Origin: Asterias amurensis
Taxonomy: Eukaryota > Echinodermata > Asteroidea > Forcipulatida > Asteriidae
NCBI RefSeq assembly: GCF_032118995.1
Contig: NC_092656.1
Location: forward strand, 12,334,761 to 12,398,760
DNA: 64,000 nt
Direction of reading: 5' to 3'
In this document: positions 4,621-64,000 of the stretch, piece after piece
How the letters are laid out: every line of letters begins with the position of its first letter
Numbering within the stretch: position 1 is the first letter of the stretch
Notes under the pieces: generated by a model
Seen by the model: the letters and a program-made list of their open reading frames with translations, nothing else
Told to the model about the DNA's origin: nothing
Databases searched by the model: none
Position numbers and translations under genes: made by a program

Positions 4621-4676
4621 AAATCAAGGATTTTTTGGAGAAAAGAATATATTGATTCGATCAAATTATTTTGACG

Positions 4677-13560: not shown

Positions 13561-15504
13561 CTTTATTTATTCGGGGGTAAAACACGAACCCTCGAGCAAA
13601 ACTAGAAAACGGCAAGTTAATTTAAATAAATGCTCCAATGCAACTGTCCTACAAAGAGGCCTATATCACTCAGTCATATTGTCAGTTTTAGCATGTCACA
13701 GTCAGTATATTGAGCATGTTGTTGTGTACGGAGACGGACAACGTGGTTCAACATTACAACTCCAACGAAATGCTTAACTTAAACAATAGTAATGAGCATA
13801 TCACAACTACTATAGTGTAATAACTAAAATAACACCTTTTGGATTATGTTCTTACCTATGATGAATGGCATTCAACGAAGTAACTGATCACGTCTTCAAT
13901 GCAGGGGACAGCTAATCTTCCCTTGGCTTGCTCTCTTTGAGCTCCTCTGTTGTTGTTCGGAGAGAGCGTGCCATGCCGTTGGTGTGGGAAACGTTGGTCC
14001 CAGAAACGTTGGTCGCACACAAGCAGTACTTGAAGCCATTCACTATAGGCAGGGGACCAGGCCAAATGGCCCGGTATGGGCGCACATTCATATGACTTGT
14101 TCTATGAAGTTGAGTTAGTCGGCTGGTCCAAGTATTGTGAACCTCAAACTCATTACATACAATATGTTTTCTTTACATTGGGACCAAGCTATATGCTATA
14201 AATTATCTTTATTCATTTTGTGTCTGTCAATTAAATATAATTGTTGGTGAGTGACAGATGAGAAAACTATTGTATTTCGTTTGGTTTGGGTTTGAAATGC
14301 TTAGAGCATGGAAAGTTAGATTATGCCATGGTCCCCCCCCCCCAAATAGTCATTAGCCGTGTTTGTTCGTTCTACTCATGTTTGTGCTACGAAAAATTTG
14401 CATACTGTTAAGTTAAGCTCTTCAGCATCAATACAAGTAATTAAGTATTTCTTACTCAATAACCGCAGTAAAAGTGGCAAAGTTTTATTTTTAAGTATCA
14501 CTAACCAATAAGTGTCAGTAGTAACTACTTGATCGTAACTCTTGTTGATTTGACCTATTATTTATGGATAAACAACTTACATAATTAAAGTAAATCTGAC
14601 TTTTCAAGATTTAAGTTTCAATCACTTAGGATGAGCAAGTAAAAACAGAGCAAGTAAAAACGGTATTAAGTATTATCAAATTAAATAATTCGAGTTTAAT
14701 TTACTGAACCAGAATTTCATTTTTTTGAGTGTGGTTAAAACTATGACTCCCGAGGTGATCCCCGGAGCGTTCTATTTTCCCGAGGCGAAGCCGAGGGAAA
14801 ATAGAACGCTCCGGGGATCACCGAGGGAGTCATAGTTTTTAACCATTGTACGAGTAAAAGCAGTCAATATTTGTTTTATAACACCCCAAACATTTCTGAA
14901 TACTGTACTATTATTATTAAGTTACAGACCTGAATGCTACAATCCACGGACGACGCGAATACAGATTGCAAACACTTTTACTGTGCTGCATGTAGTGTCG
15001 TGCAATCCGAAATGGTTACAGACTATTAATTTATCATCCTCGTACACGCAACGGACGTCTGGGTACTGCACGCCGTGTGCTAGTCTTCGGACTAGCGCAT
15101 GGCAAACCGACGCACTATCACACGGCCGTCGTCTAGCAAAACTAAGACATGTCATGTGACGCGCTCTAAACCAATGCGCAGGCAGAATACTTGCAAGGGG
15201 TGTTATAATATAAAACATTGTGAGAAACGACTCCCTCTGAAGTGACATAGTTTTCGAGAAAGAAGTAATTTTCCACGCATTTGATTTTGAGACCTCAAGT
15301 TTAGAATTTGAGGTCTCGAAATCAAGCATCTGAAAGCACACAACTTCGTGTGACAAGGGTATTTTTTTCTTGCATAGTTATCTCGCCACCTCTACAACCA
15401 ATTGGGCTCAAATTTTCACAGGTTTGTTATTTTATGCATATGTTAAGATACAGCAATTGAGAAGACTGGTCTTGACAATTACCAATAGTGTCCAGTGTCT
15501 TTAA

Positions 15505-23796: not shown

Positions 23797-26700
23797 TCAA
23801 GCAAAGCCGTTGCTACAGACATTGTTATTCTCACTGAGCGGCTTTTTGCATAAATAATGCAAACCATTCAGATGTGATCTTGTCGAGCTTACGGACACAA
23901 CCTCAAAGTCTTCCTGTTTGAGCATCTCCTGTGCTTTCTCTCGACCCCACATAGCCCCGAGACCAGTCCCATCTCCTGGATACAGGGACACGGGCAGGCA
24001 GTTCATCAAACTCATTGTGTACTGGGTTAGAACGTAGGCTCTGTCAGCATCCTTAAGATTGTCCTCGAGTTTGGTGTGCGTGACGGTATCCACTACCGAC
24101 AGGGTTCCCCCTGGCTTCAGGACCCGGTGTATTTCACGCAGAGCCTTGTAGGGGTACGACACGTCGTGAAGGACAAAGTACACGAAGACGTAGTCAAATT
24201 TCCATGTCCACTCGGCCGGCATGCAGCTGACGTCCTCACTGGCAAACTGGACATTGCTGAGACCCTCGCGAGTGGTCTTCTCTCGAGCTTGCTCGATGAA
24301 GTTTGGGCAGATATCGATACCGTAGACGTAGCTATTGGGGAACTGGGTGGCGAGCATCCTGCATGAACCACCCTCGCAGCACCCTACTTCTAGAACTGTG
24401 ATTCCTTTAACTATATAAAACACAGAACGACAACAGAAGGCAAAATAAAATAAGCACAAATAACACAGACAACATTGGTAATTGTCAGAGACCAGTAATC
24501 ATCACGCTTTGTGACCCAACATACACAAAGAGAGTTTTAGCCCAAACAGTCACTAGATGTAACAAGAAAACAGTGCAAAACAATATATATTTATATATGC
24601 CTGTATGTTTTTCATGATTTTAAAGACACCGGACATTATACTGGTCAATACTCAAAATAATTGTTAGCATAAAAACTAATACTTGGTAACAAGAAACGGA
24701 GAGCTGTTGATAGTATAAAACTTTGTCAGAAACGGCTCACTGGAGTAACGTAATTTTCGAGAAAGAAGTAATTTTCCACTAAGAATTAAATTGTGAGGTC
24801 CCCGAAATCGAGCATCTGAAAGCACACAACTTACTTCGTGTCACAAGAGTGTCTTTTCTTCCATTATTATCTCACAACTTCAAAGACCGTTTTATTTATT
24901 TTGAGTAAGAACCAAAAGTGTTCAGTGCCTTTAAATAGTAACAAATTAATTATTAAAACATCCACATTTTTGTATACACTTACTTAGTTGCTGGTTCAAA
25001 TGGGGCATTGATGGAATGAACTCTTGAAGGAACTGATCCCGAAAGAAAGGATCGTGTAGTTTGTCCAAAACCTGATCAAAGTTTGGATACTTGTCCATAG
25101 AAACACCTATAAATTGAAATAGAATAACATTGCTTCATTGTTTATAAGAAAATGTATTGCAATGTATTGCAATGTATAGAGACTTATGGGAAGCTTGGGT
25201 TGAATTGAACTACAGACTCACACGATAAATCCATTGTTCTTTGTTATGTGTGTGTGCTCAGAACAACGTAAACAATGGAATTTTACCTGTCTGCCGCCAC
25301 CTAGCGTTCAAAAGTCTCACATTCTAATTAATTTTGGGAGTACGAGAAAACGTTACTGTTAGCCTGAACATCTGACGTCACACTTCGAGGCTCGTGAATA
25401 ATGCCAGAGACCGGACGGGTGTCGCATGCATATATGTATTCTATGCAATACTATCCGGAGGACATTATTGCATATGCAACAATGTACGCCGGACGGATTT
25501 GCATGTGCAATCGTGTCCGCCCGGACGCTGCTGCATAATACAATTGTGTCCACCCGGACACATTTGCATGTGCAGCTGTGCCCGCCCCATGCAAAACCGT
25601 CCATGCAGTAAATTGAACGCCCTTGGTCGACGGAACACGTTAGCCATTTGTTTTACTAGGTAAGTGCATGTGATGAATGTCATGGGAAATGTTCGTCCGT
25701 TGGGTATTCGCTGCAATCATAAAATACGTGAATATTCATGCTGCATATACGTAGATTCAGTGCATGCACGCTCGCTTACGCGCGCACATACATGTACAGC
25801 CATGTACACATGTCCATAAAACGGTTTTTGCATAGCACCGGACACGATTGCATATACAAAAGTGTCCGGAGCGGACAGTGTTGCATGGCGGACACAATTG
25901 CATCTGACACCGGCCTTCCAGCTGGCGTGTAGCTTCACCTTTGACCTTCATACATTTCACAAAGAGATAGGCCGACGCACAAATTCAACACCAACATTGC
26001 ATGCAAGTACTGTACATCATGATGGAAAGGTTTGCGGTAACACCATGTAATGACTATCTCTAATGAGTTGGGGGTGGTTCTGAAAAGAAACGTAGGTTCA
26101 ACTTCTGTATACATAAAACCACACACACGGACACGCATGCAGACGACCGAACGTATAAGCTTTCCTATCTGTTTTTTGATTGGTCAACTGGGGTGACCTC
26201 AGACCAATCAAAACAAACCCATCTACGGTAGCTTGTAGTCACGGCAATTTTCCTATGATATCATTGTATCCCATGGAATCACTGGTTCTGAATAGCAAGT
26301 ACCTGTAGAGACAGGAGCCCAGTCTACGTTATACTATCAGAAACGTTTCTCAGATTGTGTATTCCAATCACAGATTATTCTTCCTGAGATAGATATTTAC
26401 GGATTTTCGTTACCTCAAAATGCGCTCATGCTGACTGGAATAGTTCTATTATTAACAGTTATATGATTTAGGGCAGTGGACACTATTGTTAATTACTCAA
26501 AATAACTATCAGCATAAAACCTCATTTTGGTATCGTGTAATGGGGAGCTGTTGATAGTATACATTCGTGCCAATCAGCCAGTAGAGGGCGCCAGCACGGC
26601 TCCGCAGTGGAGCTAGTTGCTGGTTGGCCCCCTGCTGGAAGATCGGAAAACCTGCTCGCATGGGGAGATGTTTTCCTATGTCTAGATCTGTGAATTTATA

Positions 26701-29336
26701 AAGATTGGACGTCTGGAATAAAACGATCAGGAATTCAAGCAGAAAAACTGGTTTTTAGTGTGTTTCATTGCTCCGTATTGTTGTGGTTATTGACACAGGA
26801 TTTCTGTCTTACAGTATAAAACAATGTGAGAAACGGCTCCCTATGAGGTGAAATAGTTTTCGAGAAAGAAGTAATTTTCCACGAATTTGATTTCGATACC
26901 TCAAGTTTAGAATTCAAGGTCTCAAAATCAAGCATCTGAAAGCACATGAAAAGGGTGTTTTTTCTTTCATTATTATCTCGCAACTCCGACGACCAATTGA
27001 GCTCAAATTTTCACAGGTTTGTTATTTTATGTATATGTTGAGACAACTACCAAAAGTGTCCACTGTCTTTGAAGCCATTGGACCCTTTCGGTTAAAAAAA
27101 AATATAAGTTCACAGATTTACCAATAACTTACAGGGTTTACAGAAGGCAGTGGTGAAAGACTTCTCTCGAAATATTATTCCATGAAATGCTTTACTTTTT
27201 GAGAAAACAGCAAAACAATACAAATTCTCGTTAACGAGAATTACGGATTTATTTTAAACACATGTCATGACACGGCGAAACGCGTGAAAACAAGGGTGTG
27301 TTTTTCCTTTGTTTTCTCCCGATTCCGATGACCGATTGAGCCTAAATTTTCACAGGTTTGTAATTTTATATATAAGTTGTGGTACACAAAGTGTGGGCCT
27401 TGGACAACACTGTTTACCGAAAGGGTCCAATGGCTTTAAAACAAACAACTTTTGTAGAATAACCAAAGGTAGGATATAATTTGTTCCCTTTCACAAATCC
27501 TTGATAATCAGTCTGGTGCTTGTACTCATTGAATGTGCAACACTCTATTCAGCAATTCTGAATACGTTCATTTTCACCAACGTTCATCTTCACAAACTTG
27601 CTCAAACTCAGACAATTTTAAGGTTTAGATCAACTGTAACCGCTCAACCGCTTTCAACACTCTTTCATTGGGTCGCCCTCTACGTCTTCGATATTTCCTT
27701 CGTAAAAGCCAACTCGTTCTTCACTATGGATAACCAAATATGTAAATTACATCGGGACAAGTCAGTCCCTTAGTGTTAATATACATATTTAGTGCATTTA
27801 TTAAGTAATCTCTGCTTTGGATCCAGCTTACTGTTAGTTTATACTTTCCCTTGATTTCCAAGATGGCGGACGACGCCCAGAATTATGGCGCGAACCGCAG
27901 GGAGAACTGTTTGTTTATTTATAAGGGTTTATTTAATATTCATAATTATTATTGTAAAAGTTCATAAGATCCTTAGACGAAGATCTCATCACATCGTGTT
28001 TATCTTCGTCAACAGATTCATGAGTGTATTTAATAAAATACTGGAAAGCTAACAGCTGAACAGCCGTGTCACGTCAATCTTGAATACAGTCAGAGGGGTC
28101 ACATTATCACGAACATTAAACAAACTCCTACTTCAACCGGATTTATGAGTGACGCCCGTCACTTGCTGAATAGTTAACATAATTTACTCCTACTTGATAC
28201 AGATTCTATCTTAGGTAGTGCCAGCTCTGCTGGATGACGTAGTGAACAAGAAAAAAAATATCGCCCTGTTGTGGCAAGAATTAAGTTACCTGCTGGTCCA
28301 TCTTTCTTGAAGCATTCTGCCACATCGAAGAACCCACTAGACAGGCACGGGATAGCAACGGACAACAAGCCGGACTGTGTGAGGGTACCAACGCGATGGG
28401 CAGGTATCCAATACGTGTCTTGCTCAGGGTCGAAGTTCACGATGTCCGCGACAGCCATACATCCCAGCCATTCTCGGACATATCTGAGTATCAAACAAAA
28501 AAATCAATTCAAAATCAATTACCAAGTTTACCTCATTTTACCCCGGGATTAACTCCCTTAAGCCATTTCCACACTACGATGCCATTGCCCGGGAAATAAA
28601 CTCCACCGCCACCCGCTGCCCAGCAACCATTCTCACTATCCCGATTTGGTAACTCCTGGGAGAACTATTTCCTAGGAATATGCACGGTCGTCGTTTCACA
28701 CCGTGCGATCATACCCCAGGAAATGTGGTAAACATTTTAGCCCATCTGGACGTCTCAAAACAGTGGACGCAAAAGTTGGGGCAAGTTAAGCCTGCTTCTG
28801 TTCTCACTAGTAGCTTCTTTTTTTCCCGGGAAACACATTTTTACACCGGGGTTAACTCCCTTAAATCTACCCCTGAGCAGGGTTAATAATTCCCTGGGAA
28901 TAAAATTATTTCCCGGGACATTCCAGGGAGTTGTTTTGTAGTGTGAAAAGATCGACCAAAAGTTCCCGGGAATTACCCGGGAAATAACTATAGTGTGAAA
29001 AGGGCTTTATGTCAGTATTTGAATGAAATTGTGCAGTATCCGAATGGCCGCAGCACACCCCCATTGACAAATTATTGTTCAGTGAATCCACACTTACGTT
29101 GACCGAAAACAAAATCTGTGACACCACCTTCAAGCTCACCTTTCTTTCATATTAGCCAAGTCCGCAATCTCCTGGCTGGTTTTCCTGTTCTCTCCAATGG
29201 ACATCATCACATCAAACAGTCCCGTCTCCATACCCATGGCTATCCCAAGACATGCCATACCACCGTTGATCTGATGCGACAAGCGTGCCGCAAAATCCTT
29301 TGACGTTTCATGACCGGTGATGGTTGGAACGGCCAT
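23797..29336 (-). CDS. SAM-dependent methyltransferase, Rv2258c-like (gene A)
   Basis: Four coding exons on the minus strand: 29140-29336, 28290-28483, 24984-25106 and 23797-24410, together 1128 nt for 375 residues. All junctions are GT/AG with phases 2, 1, 1. ATG 29336 has a strong ACCATGG context; upstream in-frame codons offer no ATG. Residues 1-130 resemble the winged-helix dimerisation domain of this family (QEIADLANMKERYVREWLG). The C-terminal half is a class I SAM methyltransferase: motif I LEVGCCEGG near 178, the acidic residue of YGIDI, FDYVFVYFVLHD, and VLKPGGTLSVVDT. Animal homologues are usually named after mycobacterial Rv2258c; the substrate is unknown and the protein is probably cytosolic. 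MITEs fill its introns. It is clearly paralogous to genes B and C. Confidence 0.88.
24624..24930. repeat. TTAA-1 MITE in an intron of gene A
   Basis: TTAA flanks both sides (24620-24623 and 24931-24934). A further fragment, about 24470-24550, lies just before it. Confidence 0.85.
25360..26340. repeat. second copy of the CCAAT-bearing repeat, interrupted
   Basis: Starts AGCCTGAACATCTGACGTCA as at 1010 and ends with CAGACGACCGAACG, GATTGGTC and GACCAATC. In between, about 25411-25930, lies a GC-richer element built from TTGCATATGCAA-like palindromes and GTGTCCGCCCGGACAC units, also found at 42160-42925 and 49855-50330. Confidence 0.55.
26472..27068. repeat. TTAA-1 MITE split by an insertion
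   Basis: The left part ends GATAGTATA at about 26563 and the right part resumes AGTATAAAACAATGTGAG at 26813. The right flank TTGA (a worn TTAA) is shared with the adjacent TTAA-2 element. Confidence 0.8.
26564..26812. mobile_element. possible solo LTR (fossil), unclassified
   Basis: A roughly 250-bp insertion flanked by AGTATA on both sides. It has an AATAAAA polyadenylation-type signal followed by a short U-rich stretch, the layout of a long terminal repeat. The ends do not show a clean TG/CA pair, so another class is possible. It is younger than the MITE it interrupts. Confidence 0.3.
27073..27435. repeat. TTAA-2 palindromic MITE
   Basis: AGCCATTGGACCCTTTCGG at the left, the inverse at the right, then TTAA. 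The inner body has ATTCTCGTTAACGAGAAT, a perfect 18-bp palindrome. Other copies: 37861-38224, 40604-40969, and a fragment at 61384-61509. Confidence 0.9.
28558..29009. repeat. MITE with CCCTTTTCACACTA ends in intron 1 of gene A
   Basis: AAGCCATTTCCACACTA at the left is the worn inverse of TAGTGTGAAAAGGGCTTT at the right. Subterminal ATTTCCCGGG and GTTAACTCCC motifs recur in both directions. Confidence 0.75.
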
Positions 29337-29986
29337 GGTAGAACACTCGTCGTGTCGGTTGCCGCGGCGCTCCCGTGGTTCAGTTGCTCCTCGCGATATC
29401 AAAACGTATGAACGAGACACAGAATGCTGTTTTTTCGTGTGCTCGACTTTATGCTAACATTACTTTCGAAACTACGAAACGTTTTCGTGCCGACCTCCCG
29501 ATATGAGCTCAAATGAAAGAAATCTACACAGGGCCATATATATCTCAAAACAACACCAGCAGAAAAGAATATCCCACAACAATGTGTCAATATCTGATCG
29601 TGAAGGCAAGGAAGCTGGGCGGTTATCTCTCCAACACAGTTGTCCACGCGCGACACTTTTGGTGCGAAATAGTTGTCGTGAACTTGTGTCAGTAACTTAT
29701 GACATACACGTTTTTATTTGATGAGTTCAGATCGAGTGGCCAGAGATCGACACCCGATAGTTTTATTCCAACCTTCATTTCCTTTCGTGAAAAATGGGGT
29801 TTGTCAATCAAAGTTTACTCACTGTATATAGCAACGGGTAAGATGTTGAAGTGGATAAACATTGTAAGAATTAATAATTAGCTTTATACGACCATAATGT
29901 AAAATAATCACCGCACCATGTCTGCATGCTTCGTGTTTGAAAGGACAAGGGCACCGAGGCATTTTCTCCTTGGTAGTTATGTAATA

Positions 29987-36582: not shown

Positions 36583-39575
36583 TTACATTTTTTGACATTG
36601 ATAATGAAGAGAGGTTGATTTAGGAATACTACTTATTGAGATAATATCAAAGTTGGCCGCCTTCATCATTTCCTGAGCTTTCTCGCGCCCCCACATTGCC
36701 CCCAGACCCGCTCCATCTACATTGTTTAGTGACGTCGGAACGCAGTTCATCATGCTGAGAACATAGCAGTTTCTCGCAAAGGTCGGAATCTTGGCTACGT
36801 TGTCTTCCAGCTTAGAGTAGGTGGCAGTGTCTATGACCGACAGGGTTCCTCCCTTCTTCAAGACACGCATAATCTCGTGGAGCGATTTCATGGGATAAGG
36901 AAGGTCGTGAAGAACATTATGCACGAAGACGTAATCAAACGTTTCCGACCAATCAGAGGGCAGGACAGTTGCCGACATGAAAATGAAATGGACATTACCC
37001 AATCCAGCTTCGGTGGCTTTTTCTTGTGCCTCTTTGATGCCAGACTCGGTGATGTCGATGCCGTAGACCTGACTGTTGGGGAAGTTTTGGGCTATAATTC
37101 TAGTGGACATCCCCTGGCTGCATCCGATTTCCAGTACTTTAATTCCATCCTCTGTTTTATTAATGAGAACAAGTGAGAGATTAATAACTGATTACTTGAG
37201 AAAAGGCCTTCTGTGATATCTTCTTGCCAGGGGGGGGGGGGTGTTGTTAGTTTTTCTTTCTTCGAGGTGAAATGTTTCTCTATGAGAGGAGTGTGATCAA
37301 ATACTTACGGAGTTGCTGGTGCAGTTTAGGCATTGAAGGGAGGAACGATTGGATCAAACAGTCGTTGAAGAACTCTTGGTTCATTCCTGCCATTAACTCA
37401 TCAAAGTGGGCGTACTTATCATATGAAACACCTGTTGGGTAACACAAGCAAAAATATCTGTCAGTTGAACATCTACATTTTAACTATTGTGATTTATACT
37501 GGAGTTTAATGTTAAAGGCACTGGACACCTTTGGTAATTGTCAATTACCAGTACTCTCACTTTGTTAACGATCAATGGAGAGCTGTTTATAGTAGTTTTG
37601 AGAAACAAGGAATTTCTCACTATAATATGTGAATTTGATTTTGAGACCTCAGAATTAGATTTTGAGGTCCCGAAATCAACCATCTGAAAGCACACAATAA
37701 TTCGTGTTGTTTTATTCCATTATTATCTTGGAACTTCAACGACTAATTGAGTTCAAATTTTCACAGGTTTGTTATTTTATGCATAGTTGAGATACACTAA
37801 ATGAGAAGACTGGTCTTTAACAACAGTTTACCAACAGTGTCCAGTGCCCAGTGCCTTTAAAGCCATTGGACCCTTTCGGTAAACAGTATTGTCCAAGGCC
37901 CACACTTCGTGTATCACAACTTATATATAAAATAACAAACCTGTGAAAATTTAGGCTCAATCGTTCATCGGAGTTGGGAGAAAACAACGGGAAAACCCAC
38001 CCCTGTATCCGCGCATTTCGTGTCATGACATGTGTTCAAAAAAAATCCGTAATTCTCGTTAACGAGAATTGATATTGTTTCACTGTTTTCTCAAAAAGTA
38101 AAGCATTTCATGGAATAATGTTTCAAGAGAAGTCTTTCACCACTACCTTCTGTAAACCCTGAAAGTTATTTGTAAATTTGTGAACTTTTTTTTCTTCTTC
38201 CTGTAGCGAAAGGGTCCAATGGCATGCTGTTGATAAAAAACTACTTTGAGTTGGGATTTCCCCTTCAAAGTAAAATCGTTCGATGTCACCAACAATTATT
38301 TGAAACTAAGAAAACATTAATTTCTCAGATTTCTCAACCTGTAAATTTATAACAACAGCACACATACCTCGAGGTCCATCTTTCTTGAAGCACTTTGCTA
38401 CATCAAAGAAGGCTGCGCACAGATTAGGGATAGCCCTTGTCATTGCAGATGCCTTGACAGTGCCGGCGACTACGTATCGCTGCAACGGAAGCCAGTAGGT
38501 TCCATCCTTTGGATCATACTCAACAATCTTTGCAGCCACCTGGCTCCCTAGCCACTCTCTGACGTATCTGAAAATTGGAGAAGAGAGCACAAAAGATAAA
38601 TTACATATTAAAAATTACACAAAGTGCTTTCTGGATTTGCGGCTAGTGCCATAAGTTTGCAAGTGTTGTTCCTAACATTGTGGGAAACAACTCCCTCTGA
38701 AGTAACGTAGTTTTTGAGAAAGAGGTAATTTCTCACTAAAATAATAAATAGCTGGAAGTCTTTCATTCCTATCTGAAAGCACACAAATTCGTCCAACAAG
38801 GATGTTTTTTCTTTCATCATTTTCTCGCAACTTCGATGACCGATTGAGCCCAAATTTTCACAGGCTTGTTATTTATGCTTACGATGGGATACACCAAGTG
38901 AGATGACTGGTCTTTGACAATTACCAAAGGTGTATCCAGAGATGTCAAGTCCAGAGGCCAGCTTTGCGTGAGATTTGTCAAACGAATCGGGACAAACTTA
39001 TGCCCAATAAGCGTTTTGCGCTCCGCCGAATATTAGCTGAACCTGCTGGAAGAGCCAAAGGGTGCCCAATCTGCAAATTTGCGCTCTGTTTGTACAGCAG
39101 CTCAAGTTGATGATTCTGATAAACTGCGTGCAATCCGAAGATTGTGCAAACTTTGTAGATTGCGTGTTTTGTACACACAAGCACGATTTGGCAAATGCAT
39201 TGTTGTTATTTTAAAACAATTTCCCGGTCTGGCCCCAATGCGTGAGAAAATGGTTCCTGTGCATGTGAGCGTGAGACAGAGCCCAAAATGTGTGAGTCTC
39301 ACGCCTACGCCTAGTGCGTGAGACTTGGTAGGTCTGTGTACCTTCCCTCTAAAAGAATTATGAAATTATGGGCACCTTTCTTTGAAGTCTCCTGCATCGG
39401 CGATCTCTTGAGTCGTCTTGTGTTCTTCTTTCAGGTCAATCATTGTCTGGAAAAGACCAGTCTCTATCCCCATGGCAATACTGACACATAACAGCCCATC
39501 TCCAACAATGTTTGCAAGGCGGAGGGTAAATTCCTTCTGTGTCTCCACATTATTGGATGCATTCAAATCTGTCAT
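36583..39575 (-). CDS. SAM-dependent methyltransferase, Rv2258c-like (gene B)
   Basis: Four coding exons on the minus strand: 39376-39575, 38368-38567, 37309-37431 and 36583-37151, 1092 nt, 363 residues. Phases are 2, 1, 1, as in gene A. The exon 1 donor is GTGCCC, weaker than usual. ATG 39575 follows a TTCTTGCAG acceptor, so a 5' non-coding exon is likely. The winged-helix half contains QEIADAGDFKERYVREWLG. The methyltransferase half has motif I LEIGCSQG near 181-188, YGIDI, FDYVFVHNVLHDLPYP and VLKKGGTLSVIDT. Compared with gene C I count 16 residue differences, spread over all exons. Both frames are open, so neither copy looks dead. Substrate unknown. Confidence 0.9.
37516..37856. repeat. 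TTAA-1 MITE in gene B
   Basis: TTAA flanks at 37512-37515 and 37857-37860. The duplicate in unit 2 is at 47129-47455, so it predates the duplication. Confidence 0.88.
37861..38224. repeat. TTAA-2 MITE abutting the TTAA-1 copy
   Basis: It shares the TTAA at 37857-37860 with the preceding element. It is absent from unit 2, so it inserted after the duplication or was lost from unit 2. Confidence 0.88.
38665..38940. repeat. TTAA-1 MITE, left part missing
   Basis: Follows the family from ACATTGTGGGAAACAACTCC to TTACCAAAGGTGTATCCAGA. Absent at the matching place in unit 2. Confidence 0.75.
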
Positions 39576-42921: not shown

Positions 42922-44126
42922 CGCGGAGCATTTCGCCGAGCATTTCGCCGCAAGAAGTCCAATCCTACTCCGGAGAACATAGCATCTTTTCAGCAACCTT
43001 GTTCCTATTCCATAAGGCTGGTAAAAAGTCAAGTGTCTCTAACTACAGGCCAATTCATTAATCCCTCAGGTAGCCAAGGTTTATAAAAAAAATACTATGG
43101 GAGCAGATTTTTTTGCCCATGTTCGACCTGCGATTTCTGAGCAACAGCACGGTTTTGTCTCTGGAAGGGATTGTTCCACAAACCTTACTTCACTTTTACT
43201 GGGGGCATACCGTGCTGTTGATCAGAGAGAGCAGTTAGAGGTTATATATACTGATTTTTCCAAGGCATTTGATCGAGTCAACCATGATTTTCTTTTGTAC
43301 AAACTGAATTCCTACAATATTCATCCAAAATGTATTAATTTTGTTACAGTTATCTAACTGGCAGACAACATAGAGCAGTTGTGGATGGTTTTTCTTCCAA
43401 ATGGAAAACAGTGCCCTCTGGAATTCCACCGGGTTCTATTCTAGGACCTCTTCTTATTTGCATTATTTGTTAACGATCTTCCTGAATGTTTAAGTAATCA
43501 ATGTTTACTATATGCTGATGATCTAAAGGCTTTTCGTCAGATTGGTTGCACAGCTCAGCCGATCCTATTTCTTTACAGGCTGACTTAGATAGAATTCTTG
43601 ACTGGTCTAAAACATGGCGTCTTTTTCTTAACGTTAACAAATGTAGCTTTTTAACCCCGACTCTTAAGAAGAAGCCTGTCAAATTTGATTGTACCTTAGG
43701 TGATAATATTCTTACTCGTGTTGATGTCCAGAAAGATCTTGGTATTTTTATTGACAGCAGACTCACTTTCAAGCCAACCGCATGAGTGGTTTAGTATGGC
43801 GTAACTTTCGCTCGTTAAAGAATGAGCATGTTTTACGTACCTCCTTGTTTTGTTCTCTCATCAGACCTAATCTTGAATGTTGTACTATTGTATATAACTC
43901 TATTTCAGCCCATCAAGCACACAGACTAGAATGAGTTTGGTTTCGTTTTCAGGACACTAAACAATGGCACTGTTTATTACTTGGATTATCTTGACCTATG
44001 TATACAAACTTCCACCCCTTAGACAGAGAAGAATTTTGAATGACTGTCTATATTTCTCTACTACAAATCTTTCCACAGTCATTTTAGCAACACTGAGTTC
44101 AACCCGCTGTTGGTCAATAAAATATA
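42922..44126 (+). mobile_element. LINE reverse-transcriptase fragment, decayed
   Basis: Fragments of a LINE ORF2 in changing frames: KKSSVSNYRPI (about 43020-43060), QHGFVSGRDCSTNL and DFSKAFDRVNHDFLLYKL with the motif A aspartates (43145-43310), PGSILGPLL (near 43435), YADDLKAF with the catalytic pair (43510-43535), and KDLGIFIDSRLTF (43730-43770). At least three frame changes interrupt it. It resembles the CR1/Jockey group by motif style. The apurinic endonuclease domain is missing, so it is 5'-truncated. It interrupts the repeat block between GCATAT and TATGCAAAAG, with ATAT as possible target duplication. Confidence 0.85.
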
Positions 44127-46242: not shown

Positions 46243-48627
46243 TTACATTTTTTGACATTGATAATGAAGAGAGGTTGATTTAGGAATACTACTTATTGAG
46301 ATAATATCAAAGTTGGCTGCCTTCATCATTTCCTGAGCTTTCTCGCGCCCCCACATTGCCCCCAGACCCGCTCCATCTACGTTGTTTAGTGACGTCGGGA
46401 CGGAGTTCATCATGCTGAGAACATAGCCTTTTCTCGCAAAGGTCGGAATCTTGGCTACGTTGTCTTCCAGCTTAGAGTAGGTGGCAGTGTCTATGACCGA
46501 CAGGGTTCCTCCCTTCTTCAAGACACGCATAATCTCGTGGAGCGATTTCATGGGATAAGGAAGGTCGTGAAGAACATTATGCACGAAGACGTAATCAAAC
46601 GTTTCCGACCAATCAGAGGGCAGGACAGTTGCCGACATGACAATGAAATGGACATTACCCAATCCCGCTTCGGTGGCTTTTTCTTGTGCCTCTTTGATGC
46701 CAGACTCGGTGATGTCGATGCCGTACACCTGACTGTTGGGGAAGTTTTGGGCTATAATTCTAGTGGACATCCCCTGGCTGCATCCGATTTCCAGTACTTT
46801 AATTCCATCCTCTGTTTATTAATGAGAACATGTGAGAGATTAATAACTGATTTCTTGAGGAAAGGCCTTCTGTGACATCTTCTTGCCAGGGGGGTGTTGT
46901 AAATACTTACGGAGTTGCTGGTGCAGTTTAGGCATTGAAGGGAGGAACGATTGGATCAAACAGTCCTTGAAGAACTCTTGGTTCATTCCTGCCATTAACT
47001 CATCAAAGTCGGCGTACTTATCATATGAAACACCTGTTGGGTAACACAAGCAAAAATATCTGTTAGTTGAACATCTACATTCACATGTACTTTTAACTAT
47101 TGTGATTTATCCTGGAGTTTAATGTTAAAGGCACTGGACACCTTTGGTAATTGTCAATTACCAGTACTCTCACTTTGTTAACGATCAATGGAGAGCTGTT
47201 TATAGTAGTTTTGAGAAACAAGTAATTTCTCACTAAAATATTTGAATTTGATTTTGAGACCTCAGAATTAGATTTTGAGGTTACGAAATCAAGCATCTGA
47301 AAGCACAGAAACTCGTGTTGGTTTCTTCCATTATTATCTCGCAACTTCAACGACTAATTGATATCAAATTTTCACAGGTTTGTTATTTTATGCATGATGA
47401 GATACACCAAGTGAGAAGACTGGTCTTTGACAATTACCAACAGTGTCCAGAGTCTTTAATGAGAACTGATTGGGGCTGCTATTGATAAAAAACTACTTTG
47501 ATATAGGATTTCCCCTTCAAAGTAAAATGGTTGGATGTCACCAACAATTATCTGAATCTAAGAAAACATTAATTTCTCAGGTTTCTCAACCTGTAAATTT
47601 ATAACAACAGCACACATACCTCGAGGTCCATCTTTCTTGAAGCACTTTGCTACATCAAAGAAGGCTGCGCACAGATTAGGGACAGCCATTATCATTGCAG
47701 ATGCCTTGACAGTGCCGGCGACTGCGTATCGCTGCGACGGAAGCCAGTAGGTTCTATCCTTAGGATCATACTCAACAATCTTTGCAGCCACCTGGCTCCC
47801 AAGCCACTCTCTTACGTATCTGAAAATTGGAGCAGGGAGCACAAAAGATATATTACATATTAAAAATTACACAAAGTGCTTTCTGGATTTGCGGCTTGTG
47901 CCATAAGTTTGCAAGTGTTGTTGTCCTAACGGGTTAGTGTGACATAATTCAATCATACGCTTAAGATAAGATAAGAACTAACTAAAAATAGTAAAGTTGC
48001 CGGTACAACCACAGGTGTAAAATCTCTTTTGGTAGAGTGTCGGCTCTGAAAAACGTTGGTGTGGTCTCGATGTTAAGAACGGTATACACTGCTCTTCTTC
48101 AAGTAAGTATACTCTGTTCGTCTTCAGGAGAAAGCTCGAAGACGAGCAGAGTATACTGTTCGAAATGTTGAGACAACACCGGATCTTTTTAAAGTAATTT
48201 GTTTAAATTTTTGTTTGGGCACTCGAAAATTTTGTCCGAGAGCAACATTTATGAACAGGCGTATTTGGTCTTTTGAAAATTTTGGATGGGCACCTCGCCG
48301 ATCCAAAAAGGCTTGTGGAGAACCCTGGCACACAAAGTTAAACAAATTACTGTTTTTCTCCCTTTTTTGACTGTTGTACTTGAGAAGGCTAAAGGAGATT
48401 TTAAAAGAATTCTGAAATTATGGGCACCTTTCTTTGAAGTCTCCTGCATCGGCGATCTCTTGAGTCGTCTTGTGTTCTTCTTTCAGGTCGATCATCGTCT
48501 GGAAAAGACCAGTCTCTATCCCCATGGCAATACTGACACATAACAGCCCATCTCCAACAACGTTTGCAAGGCGAACGATAAACTCCTTCTGTGTCTCCAC
48601 ACTATTGGATGCATTCGAATCTGTCAT
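46243..48627 (-). CDS. SAM-dependent methyltransferase, Rv2258c-like (gene C)
   Basis: Exons 48428-48627, 47620-47819, 46911-47033 and 46243-46811 on the minus strand, 1092 nt, 363 residues, exon for exon the same lengths as gene B. Splice sites are preserved, including the unusual GTGCCC donor of exon 1 and the TTCTTGCAG acceptor before the ATG. Motif I LEIGCSQG, FDYVFVHNVLHDLPYP and VLKKGGTLSVIDT are unchanged from B. Differences include IVMSA for IFMSA and RKGYVLSMMNSV for RNCYVLSMMNCV, which removes two cysteines. The introns are shorter than in B because later MITEs are missing. Product probably the same enzyme type; substrate unknown. Confidence 0.9.
47129..47455. repeat. TTAA-1 MITE in gene C
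   Basis: Duplicate of 37516-37856, with TTAA on both sides. Confidence 0.85.
48053..48180. repeat. HP-family inverted hairpin pair
   Basis: The left arm (GTTGGTGTGGTCTCGATGTT) and right arm (TTCGAAATGTTGAGACAACA) are inverse versions of the HP core, with a central TCTTCAGGAGAAAGCTCGAAGA region. Not present in unit 1. Confidence 0.6.
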
Positions 48628-51981: not shown

Positions 51982-54681
51982 CTAGTAGACGTGAATTTGA
52001 ATGTCCACCCCTCCATCCGCCATGTAGTCCTCATTCCCAGGGTGATACGCATCGTAATATTAATCTCTATCCCTGTCATTATAGAAATCTGCTGTCGTTC
52101 CCGTTTTCCCTTTGTTGTATTATGCAAAAGGTACGATTATATGCACTTGGCATTGCGAAGGGCCTACCCGCGTAACCCATAACACAATAATTTCTCACCT
52201 CACTTGAAACCGAAAAAAAAAGTTATCGGCTACCTGTTGTTGCGAACGCTTTAACCTTCGAAAACTTTATGCAAGGGTAAAACAAAATCAGCCCAGTAAC
52301 AATATACTTCGCATTATACGATTTCCTTTTGGTCGTGTTATGAATAGTTTGAAACAGCTAATTCTATACATATATATATATATATTTTTTTTTGCAAACC
52401 ATTATTGCAACTGATGAGGACTAATGATAAAAGGCACGAGCGCTCGGCCTATTGGATACGAGGCTTGAGCCTCCGATTGTTTGTCACCCACTGATCCAAT
52501 TCTGACTCAGTGGTGCCCCCCCCCCCCCTTCGTCACCCACGCACTATTGACATGTCGCAACACGCCAACGTGTCTCACCCACCCTCCCGTAGGTATCTGT
52601 CATAAATGATGAAAACAACACTGGTTATAATGTTATGATTCGCCCATCAAGGGATCGTCTTTAAAGATAAATGGACTTCTCGGCACAATCATGTTGTGTT
52701 AAACAACGGGAAAAGTGCTACTTGTAGAGTATATCCTAAACCTCCCGTGCAGTGGCGTACGGGGATGCCACCCCCCCCCCCCAACCTCCAAACAAAATCG
52801 AGATAAGTACTTACATACAAAAACAAAGAGGAAATGCGTTTTTTTTATTATAACAAAAATGGAGTGAACGGTTCGCAATCGGGAACATCCAAAATAAAAA
52901 TGATAACCCCCATACTGGCAAACGAATTTGACCCGCACCGCCCCCTTTAGAGTAATGCACACCCCCCCCCCCCCCCCCCATCCATGATCCCTCTCCACAT
53001 TATGTGGGAGGGACTGTTTGAGTGAAAGCGGGTCATATCATTCAACCCTTGCATATATGACGTCACAAGTCCAAAACAGCGCCCTTTTTAGTGAGGTCAT
53101 AAATGTCAATGAAGACCTATTCATTGGCTGAGAGTAGTGCGTGTTTAAATTGTTTGACCACCCATCTGTGGCAGCCGGTACAATGGGTTTGTAGTGAACG
53201 GTACAATTCACCTTTAAAAACGGCCTTTGAGTTTTGAACATAACTTGGAATGTTTGGATTAACATTACACTAAGCTGACATTTCCGCTCATTGATGCCAG
53301 TCTACACGCGCAACACACGCAACACAAATTATACCTTCGCCGATTCAATTCGTTATAACCCCAAGAAACATCAACATCATAAAAAACACAAAAAACAAAC
53401 AACATCAACATCAACATCAACAACAACAGCTCTCAAAAGAACGACACTACGCATTATTCGTGCCAAAGGTCTTCACAAGCACACTTTAATTTATGTGCGG
53501 TTTGTAAAAAAAATCCCTTCAATGAAAGATCGGAAATAATTCAGCACTTATAATTTGATGTCTTTGTAAATAATTGCTTGTTTGTATGCACCATATTTTA
53601 AGACACTACTGTTTGTTGAGGTTATTTCTTAAAGCTGTGAGATTTATCAAGATTTGTAAACCTAGATCATGAACCTGAATCTAAAAGTAAGTAATTAAAA
53701 ATAACTAACGTTACTTCTCTAATTTGATCGTGTTAGTGTGGATAAGTGCTCGCACGCGATTGCCAGAGTTGTTCTTGTCTTTGTTTAAACGGTCAGGTTC
53801 TAGTTGTTGTCAGCTGATGACAAATGGCTTGGACGGCGGCAGTATAAGGGAACTAAGTTTTATTTTAGCGTGCTTGGAACAATGCCATGCGCCGTTAAAA
53901 GTCACCCAATCACGGGATAGAGTGACATGGGCGTGTCAAGGCGAACCCTGTCATGGGTGACACGAGGTGCACTGAACGTTATGATGTCTTCACTTTTTAT
54001 CAACATAGAGTGCTTCTGTGTGTATTATGCATTGCTGTAGCAATTTCACCAGGAGGGAAAATCCATGCTGCGTCATCTCTGAACTGAGTATACTGTAACG
54101 TGAATTTCGTCTTTACAAAACATTGAGTCACAAAACTTGACTCAACGCACGTCATTTCTACTAAGGATACGTTTTCTTTGTCGACCATTTGGGACTTGTT
54201 TCAGACAACGACACCCACATACTGCGACGGTTTGTGACAGTTTGTTCGTTCCTTTGAGTGCCGGGCAATAACACATAAGTAATACTGTGCTTGACAGTGA
54301 CTCGCAAACGGGAAGCAAAGACCATTCAATTAGACCATGTCCTGATGAGCAGACGGCACTCTTACTGAGAAAACCCCTTCTTGGTGACATGACCCCTGGG
54401 TTCCGGTCGTCTGAACCGGACAAAACAATCTTCTTCTTGTGGTAGTCATCATTTTGAAAGTCGGCACTTGAGAGAAAAACACCTCTCTCAATTTGGTGAG
54501 ACGTTTTGTTAACGAACCAAGGAGTTCGCGAAGGTGAGCAGAACTTCTTCTTCATTTTGAGGAGTTTAACAAAATTGTCCTGGAGTACATTCTGGGAAGT
54601 TTCTCTTCACTGAAATCCTAACATTTCATCAGAGAGCAAGTCTCATTTAGCTCTTAATTATTTGCAATTGACGGTATTGCA
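51982..54681. other. region upstream of the + strand Ig receptor, no exon proven
   Basis: Any signal-peptide exon of the Ig receptor should lie here or before, but I could not identify one. The sequence has several C-runs (about 52508-52518, 52770-52782, 52963-52979), an (AT)n run near 52366-52386, and an ACATCAACATCAACA run near 53400. Confidence 0.4.
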
Positions 54682-55944
54682 ATGTCGACGCCATTGCGTG
54701 TAAGCGTCACCCCTACGGACAACAGGGTGCCAGTGGGAGCTACGGCAGTCTTCACCTGCCACACGAACGTGATGTTCGCAGAAAGCGTACAGAAATTCTC
54801 GTGGGAGGCCGCCGTCCAAATCGCCAATGAGACCCGCTACAGTTTCAAGGAGAACTCTCGCGTCGTCTTGATCAATAACGTTCAAGAGAAGGACCACAAT
54901 ACGGACGTCACTTGCCGAGTGCTCAGCTCCAGGGGCCGTAGAGGGCAAGCCAGTGCTAGGCTCATTGTGGATACGGTCGGCGCGGAAGAGCATCACTTGA
55001 CCCCCTCAACTCTCAGACCACTGCTCCCGGAGACGGCACAGCCAGAGAGTGTTGCCTCGCCAGTTATTGGACTAAACAATGCTTTCCTTCTTGGGACTGT
55101 CTTAGGGGTAGCAGGCTTCTTCGTGATTGTCATACTAGGACTGAAACTTTACGGCTACTCTGTTGCTAAGCGAGTTGCGAACGGTGTGATTGGCGAGTCA
55201 ATTCTCCTCAGGAGAAATGTGAGAGTGAGGCACTATGAATGGAGCGGGAAAACTGTGAACAAAGCTAGACCCGAGCCTGAGTCCACAACCGGTCAAACCT
55301 ACGCCGAGCTCGGTGAAACTTGCCCAAACAATTACGAAAATCTGAAGCTTCCAGGATCAGGCTTAAGACCAGGTGGCACTCACTCATTGCCGCCGTGCAT
55401 GACATTCTACAAACCCAGATCAACAAACAGCGGAATAATATCTGGCACGACGAGGACGTACGAGAACTTCAGCTTTTACATGATGAGTAGCGATCGACAG
55501 CGCTCAGCTACAGGGTGGGATCGGCCCGGCTGTAGCTTCTCACTACCTGCCCATGGTATTTCTCCTCCACCGTGTTGCCCGACGGTGTCAGCATCCTCAT
55601 CCACATCCCACACTGATCCCTGCATAGCACACAGCACAAATGATTCCACTCCCTTCCACGGTAACTCCTATGAGAGCATCCTCGATGTTGTTTCTCAGCC
55701 TGACTACGAGAACCAACGCACTGTAAGCTTCATTAGTGATGTCACTTACGCAGACTTAGACTTTGGTAGTGGGTTCGAGTCCTCTCCAACACCTAGCTCA
55801 TCGCCCCCAACTCCAGCCTCCTTGAGTAGCGTTGAGCAGACCGGAGTCGTTCCCATCGAATACTCGAAAGTGCAGAAAGTATTGTCGGTTCACAGGAGTC
55901 GAAGTGGTAGCACGAGGGTGACTGTTGAAGTCATCAATAAATGA
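54682..55944 (+). CDS. single-pass Ig receptor with ITAM, ITIM and YxN motifs
   Basis: One long exon, 420 residues as read from ATG 54682. Residues 4-96 form one Ig-like domain (C26 and C78 disulfide pair, W41). A Thr/Pro-rich stalk follows, then one membrane segment at about 133-158 and a 260-residue cytoplasmic tail. The tail has YAEL at 207 and YENL at 218, seven residues apart, which matches the ITAM pattern YxxL-x(6-8)-YxxL. VTYADL (354-359) and IEYSKV (392-397) fit the ITIM pattern. YENL, YENF (260) and YENQ (342) fit the Grb2-type YxN motif. There is no signal peptide, so an upstream exon is expected. An in-frame stop at 54655 with no AG before the ATG makes the exact 5' boundary uncertain. 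A role in activating plus inhibitory SH2 signalling is inferred. Confidence 0.82.
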   Translation: MSTPLRVSVTPTDNRVPVGATAVFTCHTNVMFAESVQKFSWEAAVQIANETRYSFKENSRVVLINNVQEKDHNTDVTCRVLSSRGRRGQASARLIVDTVGAEEHHLTPSTLRPLLPETAQPESVASPVIGLNNAFLLGTVLGVAGFFVIVILGLKLYGYSVAKRVANGVIGESILLRRNVRVRHYEWSGKTVNKARPEPESTTGQTYAELGETCPNNYENLKLPGSGLRPGGTHSLPPCMTFYKPRSTNSGIISGTTRTYENFSFYMMSSDRQRSATGWDRPGCSFSLPAHGISPPPCCPTVSASSSTSHTDPCIAHSTNDSTPFHGNSYESILDVVSQPDYENQRTVSFISDVTYADLDFGSGFESSPTPSSSPPTPASLSSVEQTGVVPIEYSKVQKVLSVHRSRSGSTRVTVEVINK

Positions 55945-58726: not shown

Positions 58727-59109
58727 AGGAACACGTTGCCTTGGATCGGACGAGTTGGTCAAAACAAAAGCGTTTGTAACTGTTTTTTATAAAATGCATA
58801 TGGTTGGAAAGATGTTTTAAAAGTAGCATACAATGATCTACACAAATATGCCTCGAAATTGCGTGGTTTTCTTTTTACCTCGTCCATTAACACGGTCGGC
58901 CATTTATGGGAGTCAAAGTTTTGACTCCCATAAATGGCCGACCGTGTTAGTTCGCGACGTAAAAAGAAAACCGTACAGTTTTGAGTGATACTTGTGTGGA
59001 TCATTATATTCTACTTTTAAAACATCTTTCTAACCATATCTATTTCATAACAAACGGTTTCAAACGCTTTTTATAGACCAACTCGTCCGATCCAAGGCAA
59101 CGTGTTCCT
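58727..59109. repeat. TTAA-3 palindromic MITE
   Basis: Both ends and both TTAA flanks are present. The centre is an inverted GGCCATTTATGGGAGTCAAA pair. Confidence 0.92.
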
Positions 59110-61832: not shown

Positions 61833-64000
61833 TTAATCTTGTTCCACATAAATGTCAGTATTGCCGGGAATTTCATACTCATTGTCATCGTCAGGCGTGA
61901 CGTCATATTCGTGTTCACCGGCGAGTGAATCCGTAACAGTAGTTTGTAGTTCAACGGGCGGTTCGTAATACTCCGGTTCCGTCTCGGCCGTCTGCTGGTC
62001 GTTCACGACAGGCGGGAGTTCGTAATTGTCGGTCTCTTCGTCTGACAATGTATGGTCGTTTAGTTCATTAGGAGGTGGCTCGTAGTACAGGTCGTCATGG
62101 GTTGCTGACGTCCCTTGTTTGGTACCGATTGGTGTGTCCTCTACTGGTGGCTGCTCGTAGTATATGTCTGGCTGACTTGCTCCTGTCCCTTGTTTGCTAC
62201 CAGTATCAATAGGTGTGTCTTCTACTGGCGGCTCGTAGTACAGTTCTTGCTGGCTTGCTGGCGTCCCTTGTTTTGTACCGGTTGGTGCGTCCTCTAGTGG
62301 CGGTCGCTCGTAGTATATGTCTGGCTGGCTTGCTCCTGTCCCTTGTTTGCCACCAGTACCGACATGTGTATCTTCTACTGGTGGTTCGTAGTATAAGTCT
62401 TTCTGGCTTGCTGCCGTCCCTTGTTTGGTACCGGTAGAAGCCTCCTCTGCAGCTGGTTCATAATAGGGCTCTTCCCTTGATGATGACCGGTCTATGGCTG
62501 CCGATTCCTTCGGTTGTTCGTAGAATGCTGTTTCCATTTGTGGTGCTGTAGGTACAGGCTGATACTCGTTATTCATGTCATCCATCGAGTCTTGATTCGC
62601 CTGCTGGGTGGTGTTGTTGTTTGGAATGTATCCCGAGTCGTATACAATGGTGTTCGTGTTTGAGTCGACTGCAGCCTCGTAGACCCCGACGTCGACGCAT
62701 GAGTACCGGGAAGGGGGTGCACGGAGTGGGTGCAGGCTGAGGTAACGAAGGGTTGAAGCGGAACGGCCTGTCTGGTCCAGTCCTTGGTAGGGTTGAACGT
62801 GCGTCTGTTGGCCGGTCCAACTGGCTAGAGAAGGCACCATAGCCATATCACGATGACGTTCATACTTTGATATAATTTTGTGAGATGTAAACACAAAACA
62901 GGCGATGACGATTTGGGCTGCAACAATGGCACCGATAACTATGCCGATGATTGTTCCACCTCCGAGCCCTCCTCCATATTCTGGAGTCGGAAGGGGGAAA
63001 GTCTGATTGGGATTTGCAGTGAGAGTTGTTGGGATTATTGTGGTGACCTCAGCCAAAGTGGTGGTCTCAGCCAAGATGGTGGTGGGTATGTTCTCGGCAA
63101 GTAGAACCCTTAGCAAGGCTCCCGCAGTCGCTGTGAGTCCGTTCGGCGTGACTACAGTACATCTCACTGAGGTCATGTCGTCCACTAACTGAACATTACG
63201 GATTGTTAAACTTACATGGTTCATGGTGAGTACAAACCGGTCACCGTCCTCCAACGACGGGACAATAATGTTGCCAAAGACCCACATGTATTCAACGATA
63301 GGAGACACGCCACCAGCTATGCACGTGAACGTGACATCTTGACCTGGCGTGGCTATAAGTTGTGGAGGCTCTATACGGGCTGTCGGGTCGATACGAAGGG
63401 GGACAAAAGAGCAAGTACGTACCCCCATGAAAGCTGGGCTTTTTGCCTGGCAGGTGAATTCAACTCCGTTTAAGGCCTCGTCGAAGAGTCTCTCGATGAC
63501 GTTACGGTGCAGTACGGCAGGGGTGATTGGAGTGCCATTTTGAAGCCAGGTGAGCGAGGCTGGTGGTATGCCTCCTTCCGACGTGCAAGTCAGTGTAGCT
63601 CTCTGCCTGAGAGCGAGACCAACAGGCGGGTCGATCTCACACCGTGGGAAGCCGTCCAGCGGTGGGACGTGGACAGTCAGCCGGGCCCTCACGTCCATCA
63701 GCTGGGTTGATCCCACCGGAACAAACCCGCAACGGTAGATGCCGGCATCGGTGCGTCTCACCGGGGAGATCCTCAGGTTGAAGAAGCCGTTTCGTTGATT
63801 ACCCACGATGCTCAACCTTGGACTCCGGGCGTCCTCGAAAAACACAGTGTCAGCCGAAAGGTAGCGTGCATCTCGGTCGAAGTACCAGAACACCTTGAAG
63901 TTCCCCTTGTTCCTAATCTGACATGTAAAGACAACAGTTTCACCCTCGATGACAATACGGTCAATGGGACCCCGTAGTATTGAAATACATGTCAACTCAC
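61833..64000 (-). CDS. single-pass Ig receptor with a Cas-like YxxP repeat tail (5' partial)
   Basis: Minus strand, open from the window edge to TAA at 61833; about 720 residues seen. The first codon is not a true start (no ATG, no signal peptide), so 5' exons lie outside. Three Ig domains: 5-110 (C25/C89, W37, DAGIYRC), 115-203 (C137/C182, W150) and 206-297 (C225/C279, W238). A Thr-rich stalk, a Gly-rich linker and a membrane segment at 349-371 follow. The 349-residue tail contains 14 YxxP motifs at Y492, 511, 535, 536, 562, 586, 587, 613, 637, 638, 658, 676, 677 and 707. YxxP is the preferred site of Crk/Nck-type SH2 domains, as in the p130Cas substrate domain. LRYLSL (416-421) fits an ITIM. 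The family could be innate immune or adhesion; the ligand is unknown. Confidence 0.88.
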   Translation of the reverse strand, partial: ELTCISILRGPIDRIVIEGETVVFTCQIRNKGNFKVFWYFDRDARYLSADTVFFEDARSPRLSIVGNQRNGFFNLRISPVRRTDAGIYRCGFVPVGSTQLMDVRARLTVHVPPLDGFPRCEIDPPVGLALRQRATLTCTSEGGIPPASLTWLQNGTPITPAVLHRNVIERLFDEALNGVEFTCQAKSPAFMGVRTCSFVPLRIDPTARIEPPQLIATPGQDVTFTCIAGGVSPIVEYMWVFGNIIVPSLEDGDRFVLTMNHVSLTIRNVQLVDDMTSVRCTVVTPNGLTATAGALLRVLLAENIPTTILAETTTLAEVTTIIPTTLTANPNQTFPLPTPEYGGGLGGGTIIGIVIGAIVAAQIVIACFVFTSHKIISKYERHRDMAMVPSLASWTGQQTHVQPYQGLDQTGRSASTLRYLSLHPLRAPPSRYSCVDVGVYEAAVDSNTNTIVYDSGYIPNNNTTQQANQDSMDDMNNEYQPVPTAPQMETAFYEQPKESAAIDRSSSREEPYYEPAAEEASTGTKQGTAASQKDLYYEPPVEDTHVGTGGKQGTGASQPDIYYERPPLEDAPTGTKQGTPASQQELYYEPPVEDTPIDTGSKQGTGASQPDIYYEQPPVEDTPIGTKQGTSATHDDLYYEPPPNELNDHTLSDEETDNYELPPVVNDQQTAETEPEYYEPPVELQTTVTDSLAGEHEYDVTPDDDNEYEIPGNTDIYVEQD
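62076..62450 (-). repeat. coding tandem repeat of the YYEPP tail
   Basis: Five units, with KQGT at residues 524, 550, 575, 601 and 626 (spacing 26, 25, 26, 25). Two unit types alternate: TGTKQGT...LYYEPP and TGxKQGTGASQPDIYYExPP. The alternation points to growth by duplicating a two-unit block. Confidence 0.93.

Follow-up and report, generated by a model that had tools for sequence, protein, structure and literature searches.

Which SH2 proteins would dock on a receptor that carries its own array of YxxP tyrosines? The question is raised by a minus-strand open frame at the end of a 64,000-nt stretch of Asterias amurensis DNA (the window), which a first-pass annotation had described as an Ig receptor with a p130Cas-like tail for Crk.

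Ig domains, membrane segment and tail lie in one open frame

The minus-strand frame of the first-pass annotation, 61833–63998, was found to be open for 721 codons with its 5' side off the window, such that the start codon and signal peptide, and possible further upstream domains, are out of view. In 500 shuffles of these bases, read in three frames, no open run exceeded 261 codons. When the domain search and membrane-segment prediction suggested earlier were run on the visible frame, Ig domains and one transmembrane segment were found, and the following features were assigned.

61833..63998, minus strand: whole open frame, 721 codons plus stop; stop at 61833, 5' end beyond the window
63672..63968, minus strand: Ig domain 1, residues 11–109, V-set/I-set like (Pfam Ig_3 11–90, V-set 15–109)
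63399..63641, minus strand: Ig domain 2, approximately residues 120–200, C2-like (Pfam Ig_2 132–188; Cys138–Cys183)
63108..63377, minus strand: Ig domain 3, approximately residues 208–297 (Cys226–Cys280; Pfam counts a third Ig stretch without locating it)
62958..63107, minus strand: Thr/Pro-rich stalk with one N-glycosylation sequon (NQT 331), from the sequence and a sequon count
62889..62957, minus strand: transmembrane segment, residues 348–370 (hydropathy 2.75 over 19 residues; basic residues C-terminal to it)
61836..62888, minus strand: cytoplasmic tail, 351 aa, with 27 Tyr and 14 YxxP by motif count

Pfam counted three Ig_3 stretches in the frame (E = 3.6e-22), in agreement with the three Ig domains first described, and gave a V-set match to Ig domain 1 (5.2e-13). 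Cysteines are paired at 26/90, 138/183, and 226/280; Ig domain 1 also contains a DAGIYRC motif, its Cys26–Cys90 pair being assigned by position, and the limits of Ig domains 2 and 3 were drawn by eye around the cysteine pairs. With these predicted Ig folds and cysteine pairs, the visible ectodomain is assignable to the immunoglobulin superfamily. Among the 60 of 204 phmmer matches to solved chains that were listed, receptor phosphatases, Robo, JAM, Kirre-type proteins, PD-1, T cell receptors, and antibodies were represented, the antibodies including light chains matched to Ig domain 1; so broad a range identifies an Ig-superfamily ectodomain and nothing narrower. Single-sequence fold prediction of the ectodomain (residues 1–300) did not succeed (pLDDT 35.2, pTM 0.22). 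Apart from Ig, Pfam returned just DUF4690 for the frame, under its cut-off. The tail alone matched no Pfam family, the sole entry being PilX at E = 7.2, and had no match among solved structures at E values up to 10. A pattern scan of viral contigs gave six matches, none a relative.

A hydropathy scan showed one outstanding segment (residues 350–368, mean 2.75; second best 1.29), which bears out the single membrane segment described before, and its position ahead of basic residues fits a type I topology. Across the tail region, each of the other five frames contains 9–20 stops. Codon usage also ranked the tail's own frame first, at 0.219 bits per codon with the runner-up at 0.207, a margin so narrow that it was not taken as main evidence. 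The Ig domains, membrane segment, and tail are joined in one open frame, and the tail is real.

The three Ig domains, transmembrane segment, and tail occupy a single unbroken frame (61833–63998, minus strand). In animal genes, Ig domains are as a rule encoded by separate exons, so a retrogene origin is possible.

YxxP tyrosines of the tail and their tandem repeat

The YxxP tyrosines are distributed between a tandem block and its flanks.

62055..62471, minus strand: tandem block, six YYE units with nine YxxP tyrosines (repeat and motif analysis)
62520..62522, minus strand: YEQP (Tyr 493), outside the block (motif scan)
62022..62024, minus strand: YELP (Tyr 659), outside the block, core shared with DOK1 Y398 and FGFR1 Y463 (motif scan)
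61965..61970, minus strand: YYEPP (Tyr 677/678), outside the block (motif scan)
61875..61877, minus strand: YEIP (Tyr 708), outside the block (motif scan)

The earlier count of 14 YxxP tyrosines, among 27 tail tyrosines, held on recounting and was reached in none of 20,000 shuffles of the tail (mean 2.8, maximum 10); because overlapping YYEPP sites count twice, these amount to 10 non-overlapping sites. By comparison, the other 94 open frames of the window (at least 85 aa each) have a combined 22 YxxP over 10,644 aa and at most two in any one frame. Nine YxxP tyrosines lie inside the tandem block, rather than the ten first assigned to it, and five lie outside. With the block removed, those five remain in 211 aa, a number reached in 60 of 20,000 shuffles, such that the enrichment is more than a by-product of the repeat. 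At the sequence level, there is good support for a tyrosine docking array on an Ig receptor. The residue following the tyrosine is Glu in nine of the 14 sites, Tyr in five, and Asp in none; outside the block, four have Glu at +1 and the fifth is a YYEP. Two near-membrane tyrosines (Tyr 419 and 432) are ITIM-like, and at least two such sites arose in 410 of 3,000 shuffles, which is not above chance.

The first five YYE units of the block measure 24, 26, 25, 26, and 25 aa. At the DNA level, a 153-nt double unit occurs twice in full, with 86% identity between the copies, and is followed by a further half copy. The tandem character of the repeat described in the first-pass annotation stood, while its recency can be stated only in relative terms (86% identity, dS ∼0.35 between the two full copies). 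These copies differ by 10 silent changes over 35.7 sites and 14 replacement changes over 117.3 sites; the silent excess (P = 0.035, simple binomial against neutrality, uncorrected for transition bias) is suggestive of constraint at the protein level. Motif cores had fewer replacement changes (2/15) than linkers (12/36), although not significantly so (P = 0.18). YYE is present in all seven tail units, an observation that is partly circular because the units were defined by YYE.

Predicted SH2 partners and competing readings

A survey of 50 SH2 domains gives the consensus D-x-pY-D-[V/L]-P-P for Crk and pY-[V/E/L]-x-P for Vav1 (PMC3514216). All 42 SH2 consensuses in Table 3 of that survey, which come from mammalian SH2 domains and were here applied to an Asterias amurensis protein, were run on the 27 tail tyrosines alongside 3,000 shuffles. 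Nine consensuses matched at least one tail tyrosine and the other 33 matched none. Matches were most numerous for TENC1 (12), Vav1 (9), and the Src-family kinase BLK (6). Each of the nine Vav1 matches is a YxxP, and nine were reached in 0 of 3,000 shuffles; the TENC1 and BLK counts were likewise beyond all 3,000, the TENC1 consensus being just pY-E. One third of the tail tyrosines (9/27) are accordingly predicted sites of the Vav-type docking consensus pY[V/E/L]xP. RASA1_C, SH2B, and SH2D1B matched four tyrosines each and ITK, NCK1, and RASA1_N one each, none above chance (the single NCK1 match was reached in 297 of 3,000 shuffles), with the RASA1 and ITK matches falling on non-YxxP tyrosines. 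The Crk and CrkL consensuses matched 0 of 27 tail tyrosines, as did those of ABL1, SRC, FYN, LCK, LYN, HCK, FGR, and YES.

Ten YxxP peptides from the tables of the same survey served as controls, PDGFRb Y1021 (YIIP) being left out. Among these, the consensuses recovered listed binders in 2/6 cases for Crk, 3/5 for CrkL, 2/3 for Vav1, 3/6 for Nck1, 0/2 for Rasa1_N, 0/3 for other Rasa1, 0/2 for Itk, and 0/3 for Brk, an insensitivity that makes a zero match weak evidence. Two lines of evidence are firmer, the +1 residues of the controls and the measured affinities. Of the six peptides listed for Crk, four have the YDxP form, and both controls with Glu at +1 are missing from that list.

Affinities for two pYELP peptides, from FGFR1 Y463 and DOK1 Y398, are given in Table 2 of the survey and are quoted here in that order (PMC3514216). 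Crk bound with KD values of 44 and 23.7 μM, as compared to 0.35 μM for the pYDVP of Cas, while the values for Vav1 (1.87 and 4.73 μM), Nck1 (2.45 and 4.37 μM), Itk (2.74 and 5.43 μM), and Rasa1_N (1.54 and 0.41 μM) were in the low or submicromolar range. The tightest measured partner of both peptides in that table was Brk (0.38 and 0.42 μM), not Vav1. Against Vav, a review places it in a pY-hydrophobic-x-hydrophobic class, with a preference for a hydrophobic residue at +1 (PMC9783222); in its favor, the origin of Vav has been traced to choanozoans (PMC6562523). The predicted tail sites resemble attractors of Vav, Nck, or RasGAP more than attractors of Crk; Crk is disfavored as their partner, and Vav would be the best single guess among several candidates.

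This pattern is reminiscent of SLP-76 (LCP2), whose sites for Vav1, Nck, and Itk also have Glu at +1 (YESP, YESP, and YEPP; PMC3795252). SLP-76 is, however, an adaptor with SAM and SH2 domains and three such sites as compared to fourteen here, and Pfam found no SH2 or SAM domain in the visible frame. DOK1 likewise has YxxP sites, including YELP, with Rasa1, Abl, Nck, Vav1, and the Src family as SH2 partners in the survey tables (PMC3514216). Judged by their motifs, SLP-76 (YESP/YEPP) and DOK1 (YELP) appear better analogs of the tail than p130Cas.

The sequence shows the architecture, motif enrichment, residues flanking the tyrosines, and fit to published SH2 consensuses; that the tail is phosphorylated, which partners bind it, in which cells, and to what effect are our inference. 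Our preferred reading, held tentatively and at just under even confidence, is that of a type I Ig-superfamily receptor with a phosphotyrosine scaffold of its own, which would recruit SH2 proteins, Vav first, in a manner more like SLP-76 than like p130Cas with Crk. Upon clustering by ligand, the [D/E]-[L/I]-Y-Y-E-x-P units of the tail would become substrates of a kinase from the Src or Abl family (Abl prefers Pro at +3 and an aliphatic −1 residue). The phosphorylated units would then recruit many copies of SH2 domains compatible with a Glu+1, Pro+3 site, with Vav followed by Nck, Tec-family, Src-family, and RasGAP SH2 domains. Vav together with Nck would lead to Rac and actin remodeling at the contact site, such that the receptor would act as SLP-76 fused to a receptor.

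The alternative nearest to the first-pass annotation, a p130Cas-like platform linking the receptor to Crk, DOCK, and Rac, appears unlikely. The number of YxxP is close to that of Cas (14 as compared to 15; PMC12071665), the receptor-borne arrays of DCBLD1 and DCBLD2 recruit CRK/CRKL after phosphorylation by Fyn/Abl, and Crk and Dock sites are described on Ig receptors of fly myoblasts (PMC8834112). Two DOK1 sites, Y409 (YAVP) and Y315 (YSDP), were Crk-positive on arrays despite having no Asp at +1 (PMC3514216), and a high number of sites could compensate for weak affinity. However, Asp is absent from position +1 of all 14 YxxP, the KD of Crk for pYELP peptides is 23.7–44 μM, and the Crk and CrkL consensuses match nothing in the tail, albeit these consensuses also missed 4/6 and 2/5 of their listed binders. 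Of four Cas peptides from the survey tables, three have the YDxP form and are Crk-positive, and the remaining one, Y664 (YDYV), is no YxxP (PMC3514216), whereas the 14 YxxP here include no YDxP; according to a review, Cas mutants without YDxP motifs and the Src-binding domain failed to restore migration (PMC12071665). p130Cas (BCAR1) is moreover an adaptor with SH3, serine-rich, and Src-binding parts, and by Pfam the SH3 domain, serine-rich bundle, and C-terminal Cas domain of that family are absent from the frame. Of the original p130Cas/Crk proposal, the docking array on an Ig receptor stands as sequence, while the Crk reading is not favored.

DOK1 is a cytosolic adaptor and is not known to have a repeat of the kind found in this tail. 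An inhibitory, DOK-like function, in which the YxxP sites would recruit RasGAP and damp Ras while the ITIM-like Tyr 419 and 432 add a phosphatase, is rather improbable. The YELP at Tyr 659 is the core of DOK1 Y398, to which Rasa1_N binds with a KD of 0.41 μM, and Rasa1 bound DOK1 Y296 (YAEP) and Y315 (YSDP) on arrays (PMC3514216). Because the RASA1 consensuses recovered none of their listed binders among the controls, their failure to match any YxxP in the tail is no argument against RasGAP. On the other hand, YELP occurs at one site only, with YEPP, YERP, and YEQP among the others, and the two ITIM matches in the tail are at chance level.

The repeat might instead serve mainly as a disordered or elastic spacer, enlarged by unequal exchange, in which the tyrosines are passengers. 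The tandem 153-nt double unit and the nonsignificant difference between cores and linkers are compatible with such a spacer, but five more YxxP lie outside the block, four of them with Glu at +1 and one a YYEP, and YYE is kept in every unit, subject to the circularity given above; we consider this reading very unlikely. That the frame represents more than one protein, with a hidden intron or pseudogene parting tail from receptor, is most improbable given 721 stop-free codons from Ig domain 1 through the membrane segment to the tail, the stops in the other five tail frames, and the silent-change excess in the repeat, even with a 5' end beyond the window, a weak codon-usage preference, and no AATAAA or ATTAAA within 900 nt downstream of the stop.

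Known receptors, a neighboring Ig frame and the rest of the window

A receptor-borne array of this kind had been called unusual at first pass, a view that is tempered by DCBLD1 and DCBLD2, membrane receptors with eight and seven YxxP, respectively, in their own tails, which Fyn and Abl phosphorylate (PMC6029619 and PMC8015000). Unlike the present frame, these have a CUB/LCCL/discoidin rather than an Ig ectodomain, and Pfam found no CUB, LCCL, or discoidin domain here; their sites are conserved in vertebrates and bound by CRK/CRKL, and no tandem repeat of sites is described in the available text of those papers. The FcoR proteins of Botryllus are invertebrate Ig receptors with long tails bearing tyrosine motifs, and their genes adjoin partner genes (PMC12065747). 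They differ in having ITIM, hemITAM, and YxxI/L/V motifs and a sushi domain, with no YxxP array described in the available part of that paper, which also reports expression of Src, Syk, Vav, Itk, Grb2, and Crk homologs in Botryllus ampullae. The Drosophila Ig receptors Sns and Duf have tails that meet the SH2/SH3 adaptors Dock and Crk and lead to actin, but no YxxP repeat array is described for them in the available text (PMC8834112). Among the matches listed from the open-licence literature (titles and the starts of abstracts), no Ig receptor with a YxxP array was found, and the new element appears to be the combination of an Ig receptor with a Glu+1 YxxP array amplified in tandem. If the tail is phosphorylated and bound by Vav/Nck, a single receptor would dispense with the layer of adaptors on which immune receptors of vertebrates depend, and a YxxP type would join the invertebrate Ig receptors with ITIM and hemITAM motifs. 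The tandem repeat would allow the number of sites, and hence signal gain, to differ between alleles or species, and a varying repeat number would open the quantitative question of how docking-site number relates to output.

A second frame in the window shares part of this architecture.

54658..55944, plus strand: second Ig/TM open frame, candidate companion receptor (Pfam, BLASTP, motif scan)

It contains one weak Ig domain (Pfam ig, 22.4 bits against a cut-off of 21.8), one transmembrane segment at approximately 55081–55137, and a tail of 264 aa. Three YEN (Grb2-type) sites in that tail, at 55333, 55459, and 55705, were reached in 0 of 3,000 shuffles, whereas its two ITIM-like sites, VTYADL and IEYSKV at 55747 and 55861, were reached in 354 of 3,000 and are not above chance. 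Over the Ig and membrane regions, the neighbor and the YxxP receptor align at a BLASTP E value of 6e-4 in a single pairwise comparison. The two frames are convergent, with ∼5.9 kb between their stop codons. From these two frames, a paired-receptor locus is possible; it is doubtful that the YxxP receptor forms half of such a locus of invertebrate type, in which an Ig receptor with an SLP-76-like scaffold of many Vav/Nck-type sites lies beside an Ig receptor with Grb2-type and ITIM-like sites. Were that the case, roles split among TCR chains, LAT, and SLP-76 in vertebrate lymphocytes would sit in single tails, and repeat number would set signal strength. An in-frame stop is found immediately upstream of the neighboring frame (54655–54657), and no signal peptide was seen in it by eye.

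Several other features were observed in the window. Three minus-strand frames with methyltransferase domains (23800–24498, 36586–37191, and 46246–46815) could be tandem paralogs, encoding an enzyme of bacterial type within an animal genome. Pieces of HTH_65 (Rv2258c-like winged HTH), also on the minus strand, are located upstream of two of these frames, two pieces (28177–28503 and 29139–29453) for the first frame and one (47561–47866) for the third, and a frame at 38309–38614 looks by eye like the last of these pieces. A long imperfect inverted repeat with matching ends, seen by eye at 58728–59108, is probably a foldback mobile element. Satellite-like tandem arrays occupy 1–914 (171-nt unit), 7748–8226 (58 nt), and 12658–13604 (∼93 nt), and a reverse transcriptase fragment at 43043–43354 on the plus strand (Pfam RVT_1, E = 7.6e-8) is a retrotransposon remnant. 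A rhodopsin-family GPCR is encoded in a single open frame at 4656–5639 on the plus strand (Pfam 7tm_1, E = 4.7e-32).
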